Below, piece after piece: positions 1,193 through 32,692 of a DNA stretch of 32,692 bases. The position numbers and the translations under genes are program-made. Under the pieces are notes generated by a model. That model did no database searches. It was not told the DNA's origin and worked only from the letters and a program-made list of their open reading frames with translations. Location: positions 1-32,692 of the IMG/VR virus record IMGVR_UViG_3300030098_004030, one strand, 5' to 3'. Origin of the DNA: a virus. Within the stretch, counting starts at the first letter, position 1. Each line of letters opens with the position of its first letter.

Positions 1193-1236
1193 TGCTCTTT
1201 ATTTTGGCTCGTCTTTATGGCGAGCCTTTTTTATTT
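1193..1236 (+). terminator. Intrinsic terminator with boxA-like sequence upstream
   Basis: Stem GGCTCG (1206-1211) pairs with CGAGCC (1221-1226) around a 9-nt loop and is followed by a T-rich run (TTTTTTATTTT). This is a good rho-independent terminator for the early genes ending at 1184. The sequence TGCTCTTTA at 1193-1201 just before the stem matches the boxA antitermination consensus; that may be chance. Confidence 0.8.
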
Positions 1237-1336: not shown

Positions 1337-1472
1337 CACAAGAGATCTACACAAGAGACACAAGAGATCTACACAAGAGACACAAGAGTTATTTTTTTAT
1401 TGACACAAGAGACACAAGAGAGTATTATGTTAGGACTATAACACAACACAAGAGGACACATGGACACAAGAG
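1337..1472 (+). repeat. ACACAAGAG direct-repeat array (iteron/operator-like)
   Basis: Eight exact copies of ACACAAGAG start at 1349, 1358, 1371, 1380, 1403, 1412, 1446 and 1464, with a shortened copy at 1337. Six form three abutting doublets (ACACAAGAGACACAAGAG). An AT-rich stretch (TTATTTTTTTAT, 1389-1400) lies between the second and third doublet. The third doublet fills the spacer of the promoter at 1400-1428, and the last two copies flank the ATG at 1460, one of them contributing its SD (AAGAGG). Confidence 0.85.
1400..1428 (+). promoter_or_regulatory. Sigma-70-type early promoter embedded in repeats
   Basis: TTGACA (1400-1405), a 17-nt spacer, then TATTAT (1423-1428): a near-consensus promoter. 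Transcription would start near 1435 and read into the genes at 1460-4958. The spacer consists almost wholly of one ACACAAGAG doublet, so a protein bound there would directly compete with RNA polymerase. Confidence 0.75.
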
Positions 1473-2053
1473 AAATAAAATCCACTGTACACTACATCAC
1501 AAGACGACCACAAGACGACCACAAGTATTTGTCATATCGATTTACATGGCATGGTGCAGGATACAAAACCAATATAATATTTGGTGCTCGGGTACACGCG
1601 CCATACATATTCAGAGACCCACGTTACAAGCTCGCTGCACACACACACCATACATACACCTGTCGCTATTGTGATTGCAATGGTTATGTATATTCAATGC
1701 GCAAAAACCTCAAGACACCAAAGCTCAGACAACATTGCAAACATGTTGACACAGCCATGGACGATGTCCTTGAACGCATGCGCGCATTTCCCCTAGGTCA
1801 ACCAGACCGTATCACATTAGATGACTACAACAACGCGTTACGCACAGCCCATGATAACTATATGGAGGCTATAGACAGACAAGAGGAGTACCCACACAAA
1901 ACAACCTATGCTGAGTATGCTATGCAGATGCGCACGACATATCACAGGCTACAGATAAAGGTCATGACACACCTATCACGCGAGCCACACCTATATGCAC
2001 ACAGCATCCACTGCACACTCAATAACTATCCCCACATCCAGATGATAAAATAA
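1460..2053 (+). CDS. Hypothetical early protein with Cys cluster, 197 aa
   Basis: First gene after the 1400 promoter. Start ATG 1460 has AAGAGG five bases upstream, formed from the last part of a repeat copy. The middle of the protein has TCRYCDCNGY (about residues 67-76) and QHCKH (about 91-95), a possible zinc-binding knuckle; the C-terminal half is helical and rich in His, Tyr and Arg. Near the 5' end an 11-nt out-of-frame duplication gives TRRPQDDHK. It is translationally coupled to the next gene by a TAATG overlap, which supports its reality. I recognise no family. A DNA-binding early regulator or replication accessory protein is possible from context only. Confidence 0.65.
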   Translation: MDTREIKSTVHYITRRPQDDHKYLSYRFTWHGAGYKTNIIFGARVHAPYIFRDPRYKLAAHTHHTYTCRYCDCNGYVYSMRKNLKTPKLRQHCKHVDTAMDDVLERMRAFPLGQPDRITLDDYNNALRTAHDNYMEAIDRQEEYPHKTTYAEYAMQMRTTYHRLQIKVMTHLSREPHLYAHSIHCTLNNYPHIQMIK

Positions 2054-2217
2054 TGAAATACTATCCCAACATTACACTCGAACAGCTCGAGGCAACACTA
2101 CCCTACAATCGCAAACAGCTTTACCTAGCCATCGAACCATACAAGGATGGCTACCTCGTTTTCTTTTGCCTCAAGGCATGGACACAATACCAAGCACAAA
2201 CCACCCAAGGAGAATAG
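2053..2217 (+). CDS. Small hypothetical protein, 54 aa
   Basis: ATG 2053 overlaps the stop of the previous gene (TAATG). The product begins MKYYPNITLEQLEATLP and ends QAQTTQGE. Its 3' end contains the GGAG that serves as SD for the next gene at 2220, so the three genes are tightly coupled. There is no membrane segment or known motif. Confidence 0.65.
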   Translation: MKYYPNITLEQLEATLPYNRKQLYLAIEPYKDGYLVFFCLKAWTQYQAQTTQGE

Positions 2218-2219
2218 AG

Positions 2220-2435
2220 ATGTCAGATATAAGGAAAGTATGCCTACTAGTGCTCGACTACAATAGAGGCGATCTTGATGCCTATCAATTAATAGAACTC
2301 GCCAGTGATATTCTTAACGAATGTGACATGGGGACTGTAAATGTTATTTGTGGCCTACATGCCTATAGAGGTACGAAGGATGATCTCCTACGAGAATACA
2401 AAAGATTACAACAATCAACTACACGAGGAGAATAG
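2220..2435 (+). CDS. Small hypothetical protein, 71 aa
   Basis: Start taken at ATG 2220 (MSDIRKVCLLVLDYNRGDLD), with GGAG seven bases upstream; the upstream in-frame start at 2166 would run through the previous gene without an SD. Acidic, helical, soluble. It ends two bases before the RHH gene and supplies that gene's SD (GAGGAGAATAG). No domain recognised. Placement among small early genes ahead of the primase-helicase suggests host takeover or a replication role, which is inference only. Confidence 0.7.
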   Translation: MSDIRKVCLLVLDYNRGDLDAYQLIELASDILNECDMGTVNVICGLHAYRGTKDDLLREYKRLQQSTTRGE

Positions 2436-2437
2436 AC

Positions 2438-2644
2438 ATGTCTAAATCAAAATGTTACCCACTACAACTCGACCGTCGAGTCTATGCAGCATTTAAAGCA
2501 ATCGCTCAGATAAAAGGAATCACCATGAAAGAAGCAATACGGGATGCACTCGGTCTGTACATCAGCGATAACATCTACCAGCTCGACATCATCCAAGTTA
2601 ATAAAAATCTACTCGCTGAAGAAAAGAAAACTGCCAGAGATTAA
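2438..2644 (+). CDS. Ribbon-helix-helix (CopG/Arc-type) DNA-binding protein candidate
   Basis: 68 aa. MSKSKCYPLQLDRRVYAAFKAIAQIKGITMKEAIRDALGLYI has the RHH pattern: a short beta strand with alternating residues (YPLQL), helix A (DRRVYAAFKAIAQIKG), a turn, and helix B (TMKEAIRDALGLYI). Such proteins bind DNA as dimers, often at tandem direct or inverted repeats. It lies about 1 kb from the ACACAAGAG array, in the transcript probably driven by the promoter inside that array, so it is a natural candidate for autoregulation. Its stop codon lies in the loop of a 10-bp stem. Assigned by pattern, without a search. Confidence 0.65.
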   Translation: MSKSKCYPLQLDRRVYAAFKAIAQIKGITMKEAIRDALGLYISDNIYQLDIIQVNKNLLAEEKKTARD

Positions 2645-2702: not shown

Positions 2703-4958
2703 ATGACAAGCTTTAACAATATACCACACAAATATATTACTGACCAGAAAATAAAATACACTGAATGGAAATACCCAGCCAGTCTACACCCTGCACCACG
2801 CGGACAATGGGTTAGGTCACAACTCAGTAATGCTAGACACGATACAATGACACCCAGTATTGCTTTTCAAGACGTGCTGATAACCACAGATGCTAGGACA
2901 CAACAACGTGGACAAAAAATATACGAGCTGGGCAAAGAACAATTTCCCCTGTTCGCTCCTGTCACATGGATAAATACTAATGGTCGTCGTATCAAAACCA
3001 ATGTCGAGCAGGTCAATGCACTGGTCTGGGATATAGACGGCATGTTAGCTGAGGATATGCAGGCACTGTTACATGGCATAAAGGACTTATGCCACGTGGC
3101 CTATACCTCTTACTCACACCTATCTGAGTACAAGGGATACCGTCACGCGTGTCGTATCATCGTCGCTATCTCCAGACCTATACTGGCCAGAGAATATCCT
3201 ATCGTCTGGCGAGCTATGAAACGATATATACCTACAGACATACAGACGAAGGACTGTTCCCGTCTATGGTTCTATCCCTCGTCTCTCGATACTCGTAAAC
3301 ACAATGCGTACATTGTATCATCGGATGGTAGCATGTTAGACATAGATGCAATCGTACAGGACAAAGCAAACATGGTACAAATATCGAGCAATCAAATATC
3401 GACAGAGCATAAACAGCAGCAGTTCTTTCCACCACAGCACACCACACCTGCACCCAATAACACTGATCGATATAGATTGATACGCGCTCCACAACACCTA
3501 CCCATCCGCGCTGCTGATGGTGAGATCAAACCTTTCTCATGGTTCATATCACACTGGGAAGACCTACCCAAGCACACCACAGGTAACTATCAATGCTACG
3601 CACGTGGTAGTGGTAGTGTGGGTAGTGCATTTATATCTCGTACCGTGGACATATGGGGTGTAGCTCGCTACAGACTGACAGAGTGTAACTCAAACAAAAC
3701 ACACCTTGATTGTATCAATACTGATGGTGGACTAGAGATTAAATATGGTGACAAAAATGTTAGCTGGTCATACCTCAAATCCGCAGATAACCTCGCTCTT
3801 ATGCTACCTCTTTTTGAGCAGAAATATAACCTCAAGATATGGCAATGCGAGATCAGACAGCAGATCTACATAGGTGATCAGCCATTGACTGACGCGCTCG
3901 AGGTAGACATCATGAATAAACTTAGGGTCGCCTATTTCCCCAGCCAGACATTACAGTTAGCCATGATAAAACAGGCGATACAAATACATGCACACACCAA
4001 TACCCGTAACCCTATTGTCGAGTACCTCAATGGGCTAGTATGGGATGGTAAACCACGCATCAACAATATGCTGATCAAGTACATGAAAGCACCTGACACA
4101 CTGCTATCACGTACCTATTCTCGTAAATGGATGATCAGTGCAGTAGCGCGAGCACTCACACCCGGGTGTGAGGTACACACCATGCTCGTTTTAAAAGCCG
4201 GACAAGGACACGGGAAAGGAACATTTTTTAAAACACTATCTGGTCGCTGCCAATATACCAACTACCCATGGTACAACAGCAGCAAAATAAACATCGGTGA
4301 GAAAGATGGGCGCTCAATCCTACGCACAGCATGGATACACGAGATGGCTGAGCTGGCATCACTAGCCAAAAAAGATGCGAACCTCATAAAAAACTTTCTC
4401 GACGAGGCATTTGATACGTATCGACGCGTGTACACGACACACGAAGTAAAGCTACCTCGCTGTTGTGTATTCGCTGGATCAGCCAATGACGATGATCTAC
4501 AAATATTTAAGGACAAAACCGGATCACGTCGGTACTGGTATCTCGTACTAGACTATATCAAAAACACTATGGCATTTGATGCGGGCGAGCTACTGTACAA
4601 TAGAGACCAGCTATGGGCTGAAGCGGTACACGCGTACAAGAAGAATGGTGAGCAGTGGCATCTAACTAAAGCTGAGGAAGATATGAGAGAGGCATACAAC
4701 AATAGCTACACTATTGAAGGTGTTCATGAGACACTCGTACAGGACTATATTGCAGCGCTCGATGAGGAAGATGTAAAGTTTTTGAATATGCCAGACATGA
4801 TAGCAGAGATCTACGGTAACAATCCCTCTCTCAAACCTGTGAGCAATCCCAACTACTACCCATCACTGCTGCTGAGATATGGTTGTCAGCTCGTCAATGG
4901 TGGTAAGAGATGCCGTCGCCTAAAAAAAAATAAAAGTGGGTGGTGGTCTATCCCCTAG
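2703..4958 (+). CDS. Primase (PrimPol-like) fused to VapE-type superfamily 3-like helicase
   Basis: 751 aa from ATG 2703; a TTG at 2682 would add seven residues but lacks an SD, while ATG 2703 has the same AAGAAGAATAAA-type leader as other early genes. The N-terminal part resembles an archaeo-eukaryotic primase: ALVWDID (about 106-112, metal-binding Asp pair), TSYSHL (135-140), RHACRIIVAISRPI (147-160) and TKDCSRLWFYP (182-192). The C-terminal part is a virulence-associated-E type ATPase: Walker A AGQGHGKGT (499-507), WIHEMAEL (about 544-551), FAGSAN (590-595) and an arginine-finger type TGSRRYW (606-612). It probably unwinds and primes phage DNA at the origin for a host polymerase, as no phage polymerase is present. 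It is the last plus-strand gene before a terminator. Confidence 0.85.
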   Translation: MTSFNNIPHKYITDQKIKYTEWKYPASLHPAPRGQWVRSQLSNARHDTMTPSIAFQDVLITTDARTQQRGQKIYELGKEQFPLFAPVTWINTNGRRIKTNVEQVNALVWDIDGMLAEDMQALLHGIKDLCHVAYTSYSHLSEYKGYRHACRIIVAISRPILAREYPIVWRAMKRYIPTDIQTKDCSRLWFYPSSLDTRKHNAYIVSSDGSMLDIDAIVQDKANMVQISSNQISTEHKQQQFFPPQHTTPAPNNTDRYRLIRAPQHLPIRAADGEIKPFSWFISHWEDLPKHTTGNYQCYARGSGSVGSAFISRTVDIWGVARYRLTECNSNKTHLDCINTDGGLEIKYGDKNVSWSYLKSADNLALMLPLFEQKYNLKIWQCEIRQQIYIGDQPLTDALEVDIMNKLRVAYFPSQTLQLAMIKQAIQIHAHTNTRNPIVEYLNGLVWDGKPRINNMLIKYMKAPDTLLSRTYSRKWMISAVARALTPGCEVHTMLVLKAGQGHGKGTFFKTLSGRCQYTNYPWYNSSKINIGEKDGRSILRTAWIHEMAELASLAKKDANLIKNFLDEAFDTYRRVYTTHEVKLPRCCVFAGSANDDDLQIFKDKTGSRRYWYLVLDYIKNTMAFDAGELLYNRDQLWAEAVHAYKKNGEQWHLTKAEEDMREAYNNSYTIEGVHETLVQDYIAALDEEDVKFLNMPDMIAEIYGNNPSLKPVSNPNYYPSLLLRYGCQLVNGGKRCRRLKKNKSGWWSIP

Positions 4959-5646: not shown

Positions 5647-5771
5647 TTCTTCTTCTTCTTCTTCTTTGCGTAAATCGCAGCCTGTTGTTTCTTAGCCTTC
5701 GCTTTACTCATTGCCTTTTTTGTTTTGGTGTTCTTTACTTTGTATCCACCTTTGACTTTTTTGATAGGCAT
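5643..5771 (-). CDS. Small Lys-rich conserved phage protein, 42 aa
   Basis: MPIKKVKGGYKVKNTKTKKA at the start and QQAAIYAKKKKKKK at the end. It strongly resembles a widespread family of tiny phage proteins beginning MPxKKVKGGY and ending with an AIYAS-type motif; function unknown. ATG 5771 has a strong SD (GAGGGG) six bases upstream. Its 5' half overlaps the end of the XRE-like gene by 68 bp in another frame, and its stop overlaps the lysin start (ATGA). The final seven lysine codons (AAG repeats) probably also serve as the lysin SD. Confidence 0.75.
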   Translation of the reverse strand: MPIKKVKGGYKVKNTKTKKAMSKAKAKKQQAAIYAKKKKKKK

Positions 5772-6006
5772 CTTCGGTCCCCTCGACAAGATATAAAAAT
5801 TCTAACCAGAGCTGTTCATACACTAAACCCTTTTCGTTTGCCAGTGCGCGGAGAAACCACACCATCGATATAATGTTAGGTTGATTCCGACCTTTGCACC
5901 AACAGTACACAGAGTTCGGATGCAACCCAGCAACATTCGATAAACGTTTTATTTCACCATACGATGTATGACGTAACAATAATTGTTTAAGCGGTATTTT
6001 TGGCAT
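5704..6006 (-). CDS. XRE/Cro-type helix-turn-helix regulator candidate
   Basis: 100 aa. IKRLSNVAGLHPNSVYCWCKGRNQPNIISMVWFLRAL (about residues 19-55) matches the XRE helix-turn-helix layout: recognition helix around NSVYCWCKG, followed by the conserved R-x-x-P-x-x-x-x-x-x-x-x-x-L pattern. The C-terminal third is polar and Lys/Gln-rich. The ATG at 6006 directly abuts the TAA of the upstream gene. It is unusual for a repressor-like protein to lie in the lysis end of the late operon; it could act as a late-to-early switch on the operator-rich region at 30.4-31.3 kb, which is inference. Not long enough for a CI-type repressor with a self-cleavage domain. Confidence 0.7.
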   Translation of the reverse strand: MPKIPLKQLLLRHTSYGEIKRLSNVAGLHPNSVYCWCKGRNQPNIISMVWFLRALANEKGLVYEQLWLEFLYLVEGTEDAYQKSQRWIQSKEHQNKKGNE

Positions 6007-25021: not shown

Positions 25022-25876
25022 TTATTTCTTTTGTTTCAACAAGTGTGCATATAAATCATGCGCTCTCATAGATGTTGCACCTTTTGGCACAGTTATTCCT
25101 TTGTGCTGACCAATCCCAACTTTTAATCCCGATGCCTTAGCAGCCTTATTAAAAGCCAGTTGTTGCAGCTGTGCTCTTTCCGCAGTCTCATGACTACGTC
25201 TACCACGTACAATCCAATACGCATCCTGTAATGACAAACCTTCATTGCTCTCTAATGTTTGTCGTACCTCTGTACGAAGGGCATCATCTGTCTTTAACTC
25301 CGGGTGCTGTGTCATAAAAGACTGTATTTTGGTCTGTGCCTGATGTCGCATCTGCTGTTCAGCCATAGGTTGTAACACTGCCTGTAGTTTCTCAGCCACC
25401 ATTTTATTAACATATCGCTGAAATGAATCATTATCAAAAGGATCAAACTCGCCCGCATCTGCTTCTGCCGCTTCTTTGATTGCTTTAAATGCTGCATTGT
25501 CTTGGAGGTTAGCCTGTAAAGCCTGTAGCTCTTGACGTTGTTGATCAAGTTCTTTGCGTTGATTGGCTAACTCTTGTGTTTTGCGAGTATAGTCTGCTCT
25601 AAGCTGGCGCATAGCACGTTGACTATTTTCGTCTGCCTGTTCAAAAAGACTATCCCATGATTCACCCTCACGTAATTTTTCTTTTGGTGGTGGTGGTGTA
25701 CCATTCTTTTGTGCTTCATATTCAGCCAACAGTGCATCTACACGTTGGTCGTATTCATCTTTATAGTTATCAATAGATGGAGTTCCCTCTGCAGAGACTT
25801 CTGTGTTTTCGGCAGTTGTCTCTGTAGGGGTTTCTGTTGATAGGTTAGCTGTTGTTCCTGTATCTTCTTCTGACAT
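25022..25876 (-). CDS. Scaffold protein, 284 aa
   Basis: Acidic Thr/Glu-rich N-terminus (MSEEDTGTTANLSTETPTETT), a long coiled coil at about residues 80-130 (RQLRADYTRKTQELANQRKELDQQRQELQALQANLQD), and a short basic C-terminal tail (HDLYAHLLKQKK) that could contact the capsid. This composition and its position between portal and capsid genes is typical of podovirus scaffolding proteins, which guide procapsid assembly and leave before DNA packaging. SD GAGG precedes ATG 25876. Confidence 0.8.
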   Translation of the reverse strand: MSEEDTGTTANLSTETPTETTAENTEVSAEGTPSIDNYKDEYDQRVDALLAEYEAQKNGTPPPPKEKLREGESWDSLFEQADENSQRAMRQLRADYTRKTQELANQRKELDQQRQELQALQANLQDNAAFKAIKEAAEADAGEFDPFDNDSFQRYVNKMVAEKLQAVLQPMAEQQMRHQAQTKIQSFMTQHPELKTDDALRTEVRQTLESNEGLSLQDAYWIVRGRRSHETAERAQLQQLAFNKAAKASGLKVGIGQHKGITVPKGATSMRAHDLYAHLLKQKK

Positions 25877-30418: not shown

Positions 30419-30549
30419 CTTATGTCCCTATAATGATACTACATTAGTAATACATAATATACATGTACACAAATGACTATGCCAAATACTATCACAACAT
30501 ACCCTATAAAGGCTAAATCTAAAAAAGTCATCCGTATAAATTTGTGGCT

Positions 30550-30667
30550 CCCCAAAAATGAACACTGTTCGGTTTTGGGGGGGGTACTGTACGTTTGTTC
30601 AGGGCAGAATACAAGAGAGAGGACATGTATTGACCTCCCCCAAAGACCGAACAGTGTTCATTTTGGG
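30550..30667. repeat. Pair of inverted, individually palindromic 31-34 bp elements
   Basis: The element at 30550-30580 is nearly palindromic: CCCCAAAA and TTTTGGGG arms flank a perfect GAACACTGTTC centre (30560-30570). The element at 30634-30667 is its near-identical inverted copy, with the centre GAACAGTGTTC at 30649-30659. About 50 bases separate them, so the pair can fold as one long hairpin or two separate ones. Confidence 0.85.
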
Positions 30668-31245
30668 ATGCTTGTTCAGTACTGCACATCCGTACAGTAC
30701 CCGAACACCGTTCACTTACTGAATACATGTTCAGCACTGAACAAGTGTGCAGTATCCGAACACCGTTAGCTCTACCGAACACCGTTCACTGAACACTGTA
30801 AACTTGAATGAACACCGTTCAGCGTAGCGAACCACTGAACACCTGTACAGTATACACCAAGTAAACACTGTTCACTTGCCAATAAAAGACCTGACATAAT
30901 ATGGCCCGTTTTAGCTGGCGCCACTGAACACCTATACAGTGCGAATATAGAGCTATCATAATCCTGTTTTGAGCTACGACCGGATAGTAAGAGCGCACAA
31001 CGAGTGTAGTTATTGGATGTTCACGTGTTAGCACCTATCGCATCCTCTACGATATAAACGACGTTACATACAAATTATCCTTTCAACGTCGTTCAGAATC
31101 AAAAGTTTTATGAAAACTTGACACTTGAACACTTGAACAATCAGTATTCTAGACTATCGCATAAATGTTTTAACTGTTCAAGACTGTTCAAGTTCTGTGT
31201 AAAATACCATGAACACTTGAACACACGATGTTTATGGTGTGAACA
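30560..31245. repeat. Cluster of GAACA/TGTTC half-sites and GAACACCGTTC boxes
   Basis: Counted by eye: GAACA at about 15 positions (30560, 30649, 30703, 30739, 30758, 30777, 30791, 30810, 30837, 30926, 31127, 31135, 31211, 31219, 31241) and TGTTC at about nine. GAACACCGTTC occurs exactly at 30703, 30777 and 30810, with close variants at 30758, 30791, 30837, 30863 and 30926. Around 31118-31225 the half-sites become direct (GAACACTTGAAC; TGTTCAAGACTGTTCAAG). Confidence 0.85.
31057..31093. repeat. 9-bp inverted repeat
   Basis: AACGACGTT (31057-31065) and AACGTCGTT (31085-31093) are perfect inverted complements separated by 19 bases. It lies in the quieter middle part of the control region between the two half-site clusters. 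Confidence 0.7.
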
Positions 31246-31289
31246 CTATCGCCATATCAAACTATTTTGATAATAAATAAACTTTTATA

Positions 31290-31319
31290 TTGACAACATA
31301 ATTATCACTACGGTAAGTA
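31290..31319 (+). promoter_or_regulatory. Early promoter candidate
   Basis: Consensus TTGACA at 31290-31295 followed, 18 bases on, by TAAGTA (31314-31319), a weak -10. Upstream DNA is AT-rich (TTGATAATAAATAAACTTTTATA). Predicted start is near 31325, exactly where the CA-rich leader begins, as at the 1400 promoter. It would drive the genes from 31360 onward. Confidence 0.55.
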
Positions 31320-31324
31320 TGATT

Positions 31325-31353
31325 ACACACAACACAACAACATTGCAAAGGAG
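31325..31353 (+). promoter_or_regulatory. Early leader: CA-rich stretch plus strong SD
   Basis: ACACACAACACAACAAC (31325-31341) followed by AAAGGAG (31347-31353), seven bases before ATG 31360. No hairpin here, which suggests the CA-rich part is the constant element. Confidence 0.6.
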
Positions 31354-31359
31354 TTACAA

Positions 31360-31827: not shown

Positions 31828-32652
31828 ATGATTGGAATACTCGTACAAAGCACAACCCGAAACAAAAAAACTGGTAACATACCTACTGTTATCGTAGGAC
31901 AAAACCAAAAGGATATCGTCTCATCCTGTCAACAATCAGGATGCGTTCTACTCAGTGAACAGCTCGGTGGTAGTGGCATGTATAAAGACCTCGGTTTAAA
32001 ACCATGTTATGCCCATAAGTCTCACGTCTCGTGGGGTACAAAATCAATCTTTCGAGCTATTGAAAGAGGCACAAAAACCCTTGAGGATTACAGTATAAAA
32101 GAAGGCTTCCGCATGGCATCACGTCACGCGAAATATTTCCGATTATCATCCATTGGAGATTGTTCAGTACTTGACCCGTCCATTATTGATGAGCTACTAT
32201 CCGAAGCAAAACGATACCAGCTTACACCACTGGGTTACACTGCTAACCCAGAGGCTACCCATTTACAAAATATCGTTTTATTGTCGTGTCCTACCATGGC
32301 ACGCGCGGATGCTGCTATCAAAGATGGATGGCGAGTTGCTGTCCAAATCACCAAACCCTATAGACATGGTGATAGCAAAACATTTACAACTCCGGATGGT
32401 CATCTCGGGGTTATCTGTCCCGAGCAAACTCAAGCTATAAAATACAAGGCTATAGACGAGAGGAATAAAGCAGTGCTCTTACTATTACTCGCCATAGCAT
32501 CCAATGAAGGCTTTATATTTACGGTATCCTATTCTGGCCAGAATAAACCCAGCGCGCGCAAAAAAATCACGTGTAACACGTGCGGACTCTGCGCACGAGG
32601 CAACACCCACAAAACAAAATATAAAGCTATTGGCTTTATACCTCACAACTAA
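31828..32652 (+). CDS. DUF7227-like Cys-rich protein with an insertion, 274 aa
   Basis: Start ATG 31828 with GAGGAA upstream; an ATG at 31771 lies inside the previous gene and is rejected. Cysteines: C34-x4-C39, C60 in CYAH, C154 in SCP, C197 in ICPEQ, and C249-x2-C252-x2-C255 in TCNTCGLCA near the end. This layout matches phage DUF7227-type proteins and suggests a metal or Fe-S site; function unknown. Between ICPEQTQ and the final Cys cluster this copy carries about 47 residues, including hydrophobic AVLLLLLAIA, where the copy at base 1 has about 12. Early gene, followed by the leader-hairpin module. Confidence 0.75.
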   Translation: MIGILVQSTTRNKKTGNIPTVIVGQNQKDIVSSCQQSGCVLLSEQLGGSGMYKDLGLKPCYAHKSHVSWGTKSIFRAIERGTKTLEDYSIKEGFRMASRHAKYFRLSSIGDCSVLDPSIIDELLSEAKRYQLTPLGYTANPEATHLQNIVLLSCPTMARADAAIKDGWRVAVQITKPYRHGDSKTFTTPDGHLGVICPEQTQAIKYKAIDERNKAVLLLLLAIASNEGFIFTVSYSGQNKPSARKKITCNTCGLCARGNTHKTKYKAIGFIPHN

Positions 32653-32684
32653 CACACAACACAACCCGCCCCCTTTAAAGGGGG
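32651..32684 (+). promoter_or_regulatory. Leader module cut by the window edge
   Basis: AACACACAACACAAC (32651-32665) and the palindrome CCCCCTTTAAAGGGGG (32669-32684) are identical to 211-244. The sequence after the palindrome (CTTCACTA) differs from that after 244 (TATCAACATAAGG) and looks more like the one after 920 (CTTTGCTATAGGAG). Confidence 0.6.
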
Positions 32685-32692
32685 CTTCACTA

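Follow-up and report, generated by a model that had tools for sequence, protein, structure and literature searches.

A direct-repeat array over an internal early promoter of a phage looks like an operator rather than a replication start point

We analyzed a 32,692-base stretch of viral DNA (the window) in which the terminase, portal-like, major head, and internal-virion-like genes lie on the minus strand and the early genes on the plus strand. The second early operon runs in the order p197, p54, p71, a ribbon-helix-helix (RHH)-like protein, and a VapE-type primase-helicase. The features at the head of this operon, and its genes, are:

1206–1226, plus strand: intrinsic terminator after the MTase/p120 gene group (8-pair stem, 6 GC, then TTTTTTATTT)
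1243–1277: GC-rich dyad with 10-bp arms (1243–1252 and 1268–1277), 9/10 paired
1309–1326: perfect 18-bp palindrome, ATACCAGCTAGCTGGTAT
1337–1344, plus strand: repeat copy 1, CACAAGAG, with a T before it
1350–1366, plus strand: doublet A, CACAAGAGaCACAAGAG
1372–1388, plus strand: doublet B, CACAAGAGaCACAAGAG, in a 22-bp duplication with copy 1 and doublet A
1389–1403: AT-rich stretch, read from the sequence, from doublet B to doublet C and into the −35
1400–1428, plus strand: sigma70-type promoter, TTGACA-17-TATTAT, by consensus match only
1404–1420, plus strand: doublet C, in the promoter
1447–1454, plus strand: repeat copy 8, in the leader
1460–2053, plus strand: p197, the leading operon gene, for a SWIM-like protein with CxC...CxH
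1465–1472, plus strand: repeat copy 9, in p197 codons 2–5
1498–1525, plus strand: decayed 11-bp tandem copies, CACAAGACGAC x2.5, in the p197 gene
2053–2217, plus strand: p54, no PHROG match
2220–2435, plus strand: p71, no PHROG match
2438–2644, plus strand: 68-aa RHH-like protein, leading candidate for the array binder
2703–4958, plus strand: VapE-type primase-helicase (PF05272, E 4.4e-59; phrog_256)

The original prediction described eight exact 9-mers between 1337 and 1472, six of them as three tandem doublets, and we recovered this arrangement far above shuffled expectation. The 9-mer ACACAAGAG starts on the plus strand at 1349, 1358, 1371, 1380, 1403, 1412, 1446, and 1464, and the only copy outside the array lies at 25571 on the minus strand; these nine matches in the window compare with 0.30 expected, and none of 100 shuffles reached nine. 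A further copy of the 8-mer CACAAGAG at 1337 completes the eight 9-mers, and this 8-mer, with nine exact copies between 1337 and 1472, all on the plus strand, is the true repeat unit. It was the top 8-mer in 1185–1530 (n = 9), the highest count over 1000 dinucleotide shuffles being five. As in a direct-repeat operator, several copies of a short non-palindromic unit thus stand on one strand.

The nine copy starts are spaced 13, 9, 13, 9, 23, 9, 34, and 18 bp apart, the six doublet copies being paired at 9 bp. Further spacings of 33 and then 11 bp lead on to two decayed CACAAGAC copies (1498 and 1509) inside the p197 gene; since 11 bp is not a multiple of three, peptide repeats do not explain this tandem. 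Five of the nine array copies are accounted for by an exact 22-bp tandem duplication (1337–1358 and 1359–1380), so the number of independent copies is below nine. Doublet C and the last two copies sit in unrelated surroundings, and outside the 22-bp duplication the 8-mer stays constant while the linkers vary (ATCTA, TTATTTTTTTATTGA, the −10 plus leader, and GACACATGGA). With the decayed copies included, there are 11 copy starts, and modulo 10.5 they all cluster in a 5-bp range. The p-values for this helical phasing (0.008 against random gaps of 9–34 bp, 0.015 with the best period chosen, and 0.04 without the three duplicated copies) are rough because the array copies are not independent.

The array overlaps the operon promoter, recognized by its consensus match. 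With the −35 TTGACA at 1400–1405, a 17-bp spacer, and the −10 TATTAT at 1423–1428, it is the sole 11/12 sigma70-like match on the plus strand of the window (one other lies on the minus strand; 0.55 expected per strand). Doublet C takes in the final two −35 bases together with 15 of the 17 spacer bases, in agreement with the earlier claim that one doublet fills the spacer of a near-consensus promoter, and copy 8 with the next G forms a Shine-Dalgarno-like AAGAGG. The terminator upstream makes a new promoter likely at this place; with the preceding genes closed in this way, the array wraps the promoter of the second early operon. The palindrome and the GC-rich dyad predicted near the array were both present; DNA folding of 1236–1335 gave z = −2.0, with 8 of 200 shuffles folding equally well. 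A search for RNA families and tRNAs found none.

We reasoned that the array is probably a multi-site operator of the 1400–1428 promoter, whichever protein binds it. In favor of this, the repeats lie over the −35, the spacer, the leader, and the beginning of the operon, two of whose products are putative DNA-binding proteins; as predicted, the primase-helicase and RHH-like genes (at 2703 and 2438) lie downstream on the same strand, ∼1.2 and ∼1 kb away. The promoter would drive the whole second early operon (p197, p54, p71, the RHH-like protein, and the primase-helicase). A small phage DNA-binding protein would take the 8-bp units as neighboring dimers on the doublets and spread by contacts between neighbors to close the promoter. 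With doublet C and the flanking sites filled, the −35, the spacer, the start region, and the ribosome site would be covered, and sigma70 polymerase would be shut out. The effect of binding would presumably be repressive.

The RHH-like protein is the leading candidate for this binder, an assignment that we hold tentatively and at somewhat less than even chances. Made by the same operon, it would place the replication proteins under feedback control, and feedback repression is the most economical account of the locus. Its predicted structure (mean pLDDT 78) begins with a strand-like N-terminal segment followed by two helices; a third helix is modeled poorly. Foldseek gave no match at E ≤ 0.001, and RHH proteins fill its top rows, the PDB entry for pRN1 ORF56 being among the fold matches. 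In a second structural alignment, RHH-type repressors and antitoxins led, PutA, CopG, and Arc among them, with Z values reaching 5.5; values of about 5 are weak and common by the alignment tool's own note. Of 12 homologues scanned, two matched Pfam RHH_1, the better one at E 9e-4. Against the assignment stand this weak Z, the lack of a Foldseek match at that cut-off, and the Pfam scan of the window protein, which gave no RHH match (best DUF6290, E 0.008, below cut-off).

The nearest known systems share parts of this arrangement. The RHH protein omega of pSM19035 binds sites of 7–10 consecutive non-palindromic 7-bp repeats that overlap promoters (PMC9499535). Short multi-copy repeats over promoters and an RHH or RHH-like protein are common to both; here, however, the units are 8 bp long and stand mostly in 9-bp-spaced pairs with gaps, whereas the omega heptads are consecutive, a difference that counts against the operator reading, and we found no ParA partner. 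ParR of ParMRC systems, also an RHH-type protein, has its direct repeats in parC upstream of parM, with units of 8 to 20 bp, 8 and 11 bp included; one title in the reference list of that paper speaks of ten direct repeats on the two sides of a plasmid R1 promoter (PMC9426499). Direct repeats upstream of an operon are again the likeness, but here no ParM-like gene was seen and the repeats run into the coding start. In pRN1, the small repressor gene orf56 is cotranscribed with the replication protein gene orf904 (PMC4234260), much as a small putative regulator gene is joined to a replication gene here. Unlike the phage operon, in which three other genes precede, pRN1 is an archaeal plasmid, and the portion of that account used here notes no repeat array.

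We then considered p197, or another factor, as the binder of the same operator in place of the RHH-like protein, which we regard as unlikely. The array overlaps the start of p197, which carries a CxCxnCxH (SWIM) motif, and CxC...CxH open reading frames (ORFs) recur on the plus strand in the early regions of 12 out of 15 relatives (those of G003–G005, relatives being given as G numbers, are near-identical). The pattern also turned up in four minus-strand ORFs (G003–G006), which we took as chance. A p197 homology search gave 0 of 22 records; looser matching found a homologue in G001 (E 8e-5), the only one from the alignment search, and another was recognized in G007 by reading the sequence. G007 is also the only relative with a tract similar to the array. 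However, the SWIM assignment rests on pattern and is weak: no Pfam SWIM profile matched p197, and of five other CxC...CxH proteins scanned, one matched, below cut-off (a G012 ORF, 17.0 bits versus 19.6). The p197 model, moreover, has a mean pLDDT of 61 and found no structural match at E ≤ 0.001. Separately, p100 (5704–6006, minus strand), matched in most relatives, looked like a helix-turn-helix (HTH) protein by eye and was set aside when Pfam and PHROGs gave no HTH match.

Alignment of the array in related phages had been proposed as a check for a conserved repeat number, and at the distances covered here the array was not conserved. A helicase search found 19 loci, highly syntenic and with 44%–59% identity in the best segment; the closest early regions compared have only about 50% helicase identity over length. 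Fourteen of these loci carry the RHH-like gene, and the other five begin inside the helicase gene. The syntenic relatives with RHH-like and helicase genes lack the array, save for a weakly similar tract in G007. No CACAAGAG cluster occurred in 26 records (scattered copies in 19, at most five per record). Likewise, 14 of 15 relatives' early regions had no ACAAGA-type cluster, some of these regions being partial, and G007 was the exception. Its tract ends at the contig end, and its alignment score to the array was reached by 11 of 500 shuffles, as compared with 31 of 500 for the G001 region. With one end of the G007 contig inside the tract and the other in the TGAACA region described below, its length suggests that about 3 kb may be missing and that the array may continue there. 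Among relatives whose sequence extends over this place, an ORF listing showed no noncoding gap comparable to 1185–1459 before the helicase operon; the gap in G001 is short and, by eye, contains GATTTT repeats and a hairpin resembling a terminator.

A terminase search for closer relatives returned two 93% fragments (L155 and L171) with no CACAAGAG cluster; by length and content, they appear not to reach the place of the array. The same query found no relative among host or prophage sequences in genome contigs, and the phage-record collection searched contained nothing close to this virus group. Exact ACACAAGAGACACAAGAG in viral contigs L021–L023 was set aside as unrelated, since these contigs matched none of the 35 window proteins compared and, at the three sites inspected, held at most two or three units. 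The CACAAGAGNCACAAGAG hits in 105 stretches, mostly single matches, were look-alikes. Eight other viral contigs (L085, L090, L096, L108, L120, L130, L134, and L143) carry long 9-bp ACAAGAGT[CTA] arrays. In the six of the eight that were checked, the array lies in a stop-free frame of 118–210 codons that would read as D/N/Y-S-C or T-R-V peptide repeats, and we take these arrays as probable coding repeats, unrelated to ours.

A conserved protein beside an array that is not conserved would need a changing site, which counts against the RHH-like protein as the binder. The predicted RHH strand residues do differ in the alignment of relatives, which would fit a lineage-specific site: the candidate reading residues, which we assign by analogy with Arc, are C/P/Q in the window, N/P/A in G007, C/P/T in G009, T/P/S in G012, V/P/K in G003, and A/M/R in G011.

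The array might also be a by-product of local tandem duplication in A/C-rich leader tracts (CACAACACAACA), with no binding role, which we consider rather improbable. Such leaders precede many start codons in the window and its relatives, the G007 tract is a simple ACAAGA-type sequence before a start codon, and part of the array is a single 22-bp duplication. On the other hand, most copies lie upstream of or within the promoter, outside the leader; exact 8-mers recur against several unlike backgrounds; and the copies are helically phased.

The original prediction allowed for iterons or operators. The operator half gained support from the position over the promoter, the terminator upstream, and the two putative DNA-binding proteins in the operon; the origin half did not. 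As an iteron-type origin, the array would be bound by an initiator (the primase-helicase or p197), the AT-rich stretch would open, and replication would start, transcription control being a by-product. The 22-bp repeat unit, the adjoining AT-rich stretch and dyads, and the VapE-type primase-helicase in the operon are consistent with such a role. P4 alpha and SaPI Rep reportedly bind iterons at their origins, likewise short iterons near a primase-helicase gene, but the array here is not common to the relatives, and the repeats shared across the group are those at 30.5–31.3 kb. Cumulative GC skew fell steadily, with no turning point and hence no predicted minimum at the array, and DnaA-like boxes were not enriched (39 found versus 54.9 expected), so that an origin dependent on DnaA is not supported. 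Neither signal need be seen in a phage replicon that is self-sufficient. However, syntenic relatives whose helicases are 44%–59% identical did not retain the repeats alongside this putative cognate initiator, apart from the weak G007 tract; such a loss was one of the refuting conditions named in the original prediction. We therefore judge an origin at the array improbable.

GC skew is negative nearly throughout the window, whatever the gene direction, which may reflect unidirectional replication or a strand-specific bias. The window ends (1–250 and 32344–32692) are near-duplicates of the p293 gene end, diverged in the middle; either a tandem paralogue or a circular genome that has strain variants is suggested by this.

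The repeat region shared by the group lies between the RusA gene (minus strand) and the first early gene, ∼3 kb from the array if the genome is circular:

30501–31359: conserved divergent noncoding region with TGAACA/GAACNNNGTTC repeats, candidate origin or main early control region

It holds 19 TGAACA sites within 30.47–31.36 kb (95th-percentile shuffle maximum, 6) and, within 30,501–31,300, eight GAACNNNGTTC sites when one mismatch is allowed (in shuffles, 0.34 on average and never more than 3). GAACA-type words exceeded the shuffle limit in 6 of the 10 divergent regions compared (the window, G001, G002, G004, G006, and G011); they were not enriched in G012, G013, and G017, and G014 had marginal 7-mers only. 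The window region and its five enriched equivalents are dense in half-sites (TGAACA), palindromes (GAACNNNGTTC), and direct repeats (TTGAACACTTGAACA), and are candidates for an origin or for early/late control. The region is a better candidate for an origin or early control than the array is.

An element consisting of AAAAAGTCATCCAGATATTTTT with G and C runs aligned, with varying degrees of change, in 8 of 16 early regions scanned; in the other eight the place was not covered or the script did not pick it up. In the window (about 30500–30595) and seven relatives, it adjoins the RusA/terminase genes, and it occurs in varied form even where TGAACA arrays are missing (G012, G013, and G017). It could be a packaging or origin element.

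Binding of the RHH-like protein to the TGAACA sites was set aside, as these sites persist in several lineages while the predicted strand residues change, which suggests that the protein reads something else. In the G011 divergent region, ATCTAC/GTAGAT words occur in six copies, at the shuffle limit, and G002 looked similar by eye; these two relatives have one predicted RHH strand (KAYMLRMD), and the words might be their RHH site.

Although direct repeats around a promoter with an RHH-like gene resemble parC-ParR and omega-parS, a ParMRC- or ParABS-type centromere is scarcely credible, given no ParM/ParA-like match among the window proteins scanned (a subset of ORFs) and a genome that looks viral, with its own head and packaging genes and no plasmid-maintenance gene seen.

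Overall, the array appears to be a new case of a familiar type of switch rather than a replication start point, and the search for the origin is redirected to the conserved repeat region elsewhere in the genome. It is conceivable, but unlikely, that such a switch over the replication operon is re-invented in each lineage, with a conserved RHH-like repressor changing its reading residues while a new array grows over a new internal promoter. If so, the replication genes would gain a feedback loop of their own, akin to copy-number control and distinct from the conserved TGAACA control or origin region. On the operator reading, this locus would be a small system, open to experiment, in which direct repeats govern the replication operon of a phage whose group has no near counterpart among the phage records searched.
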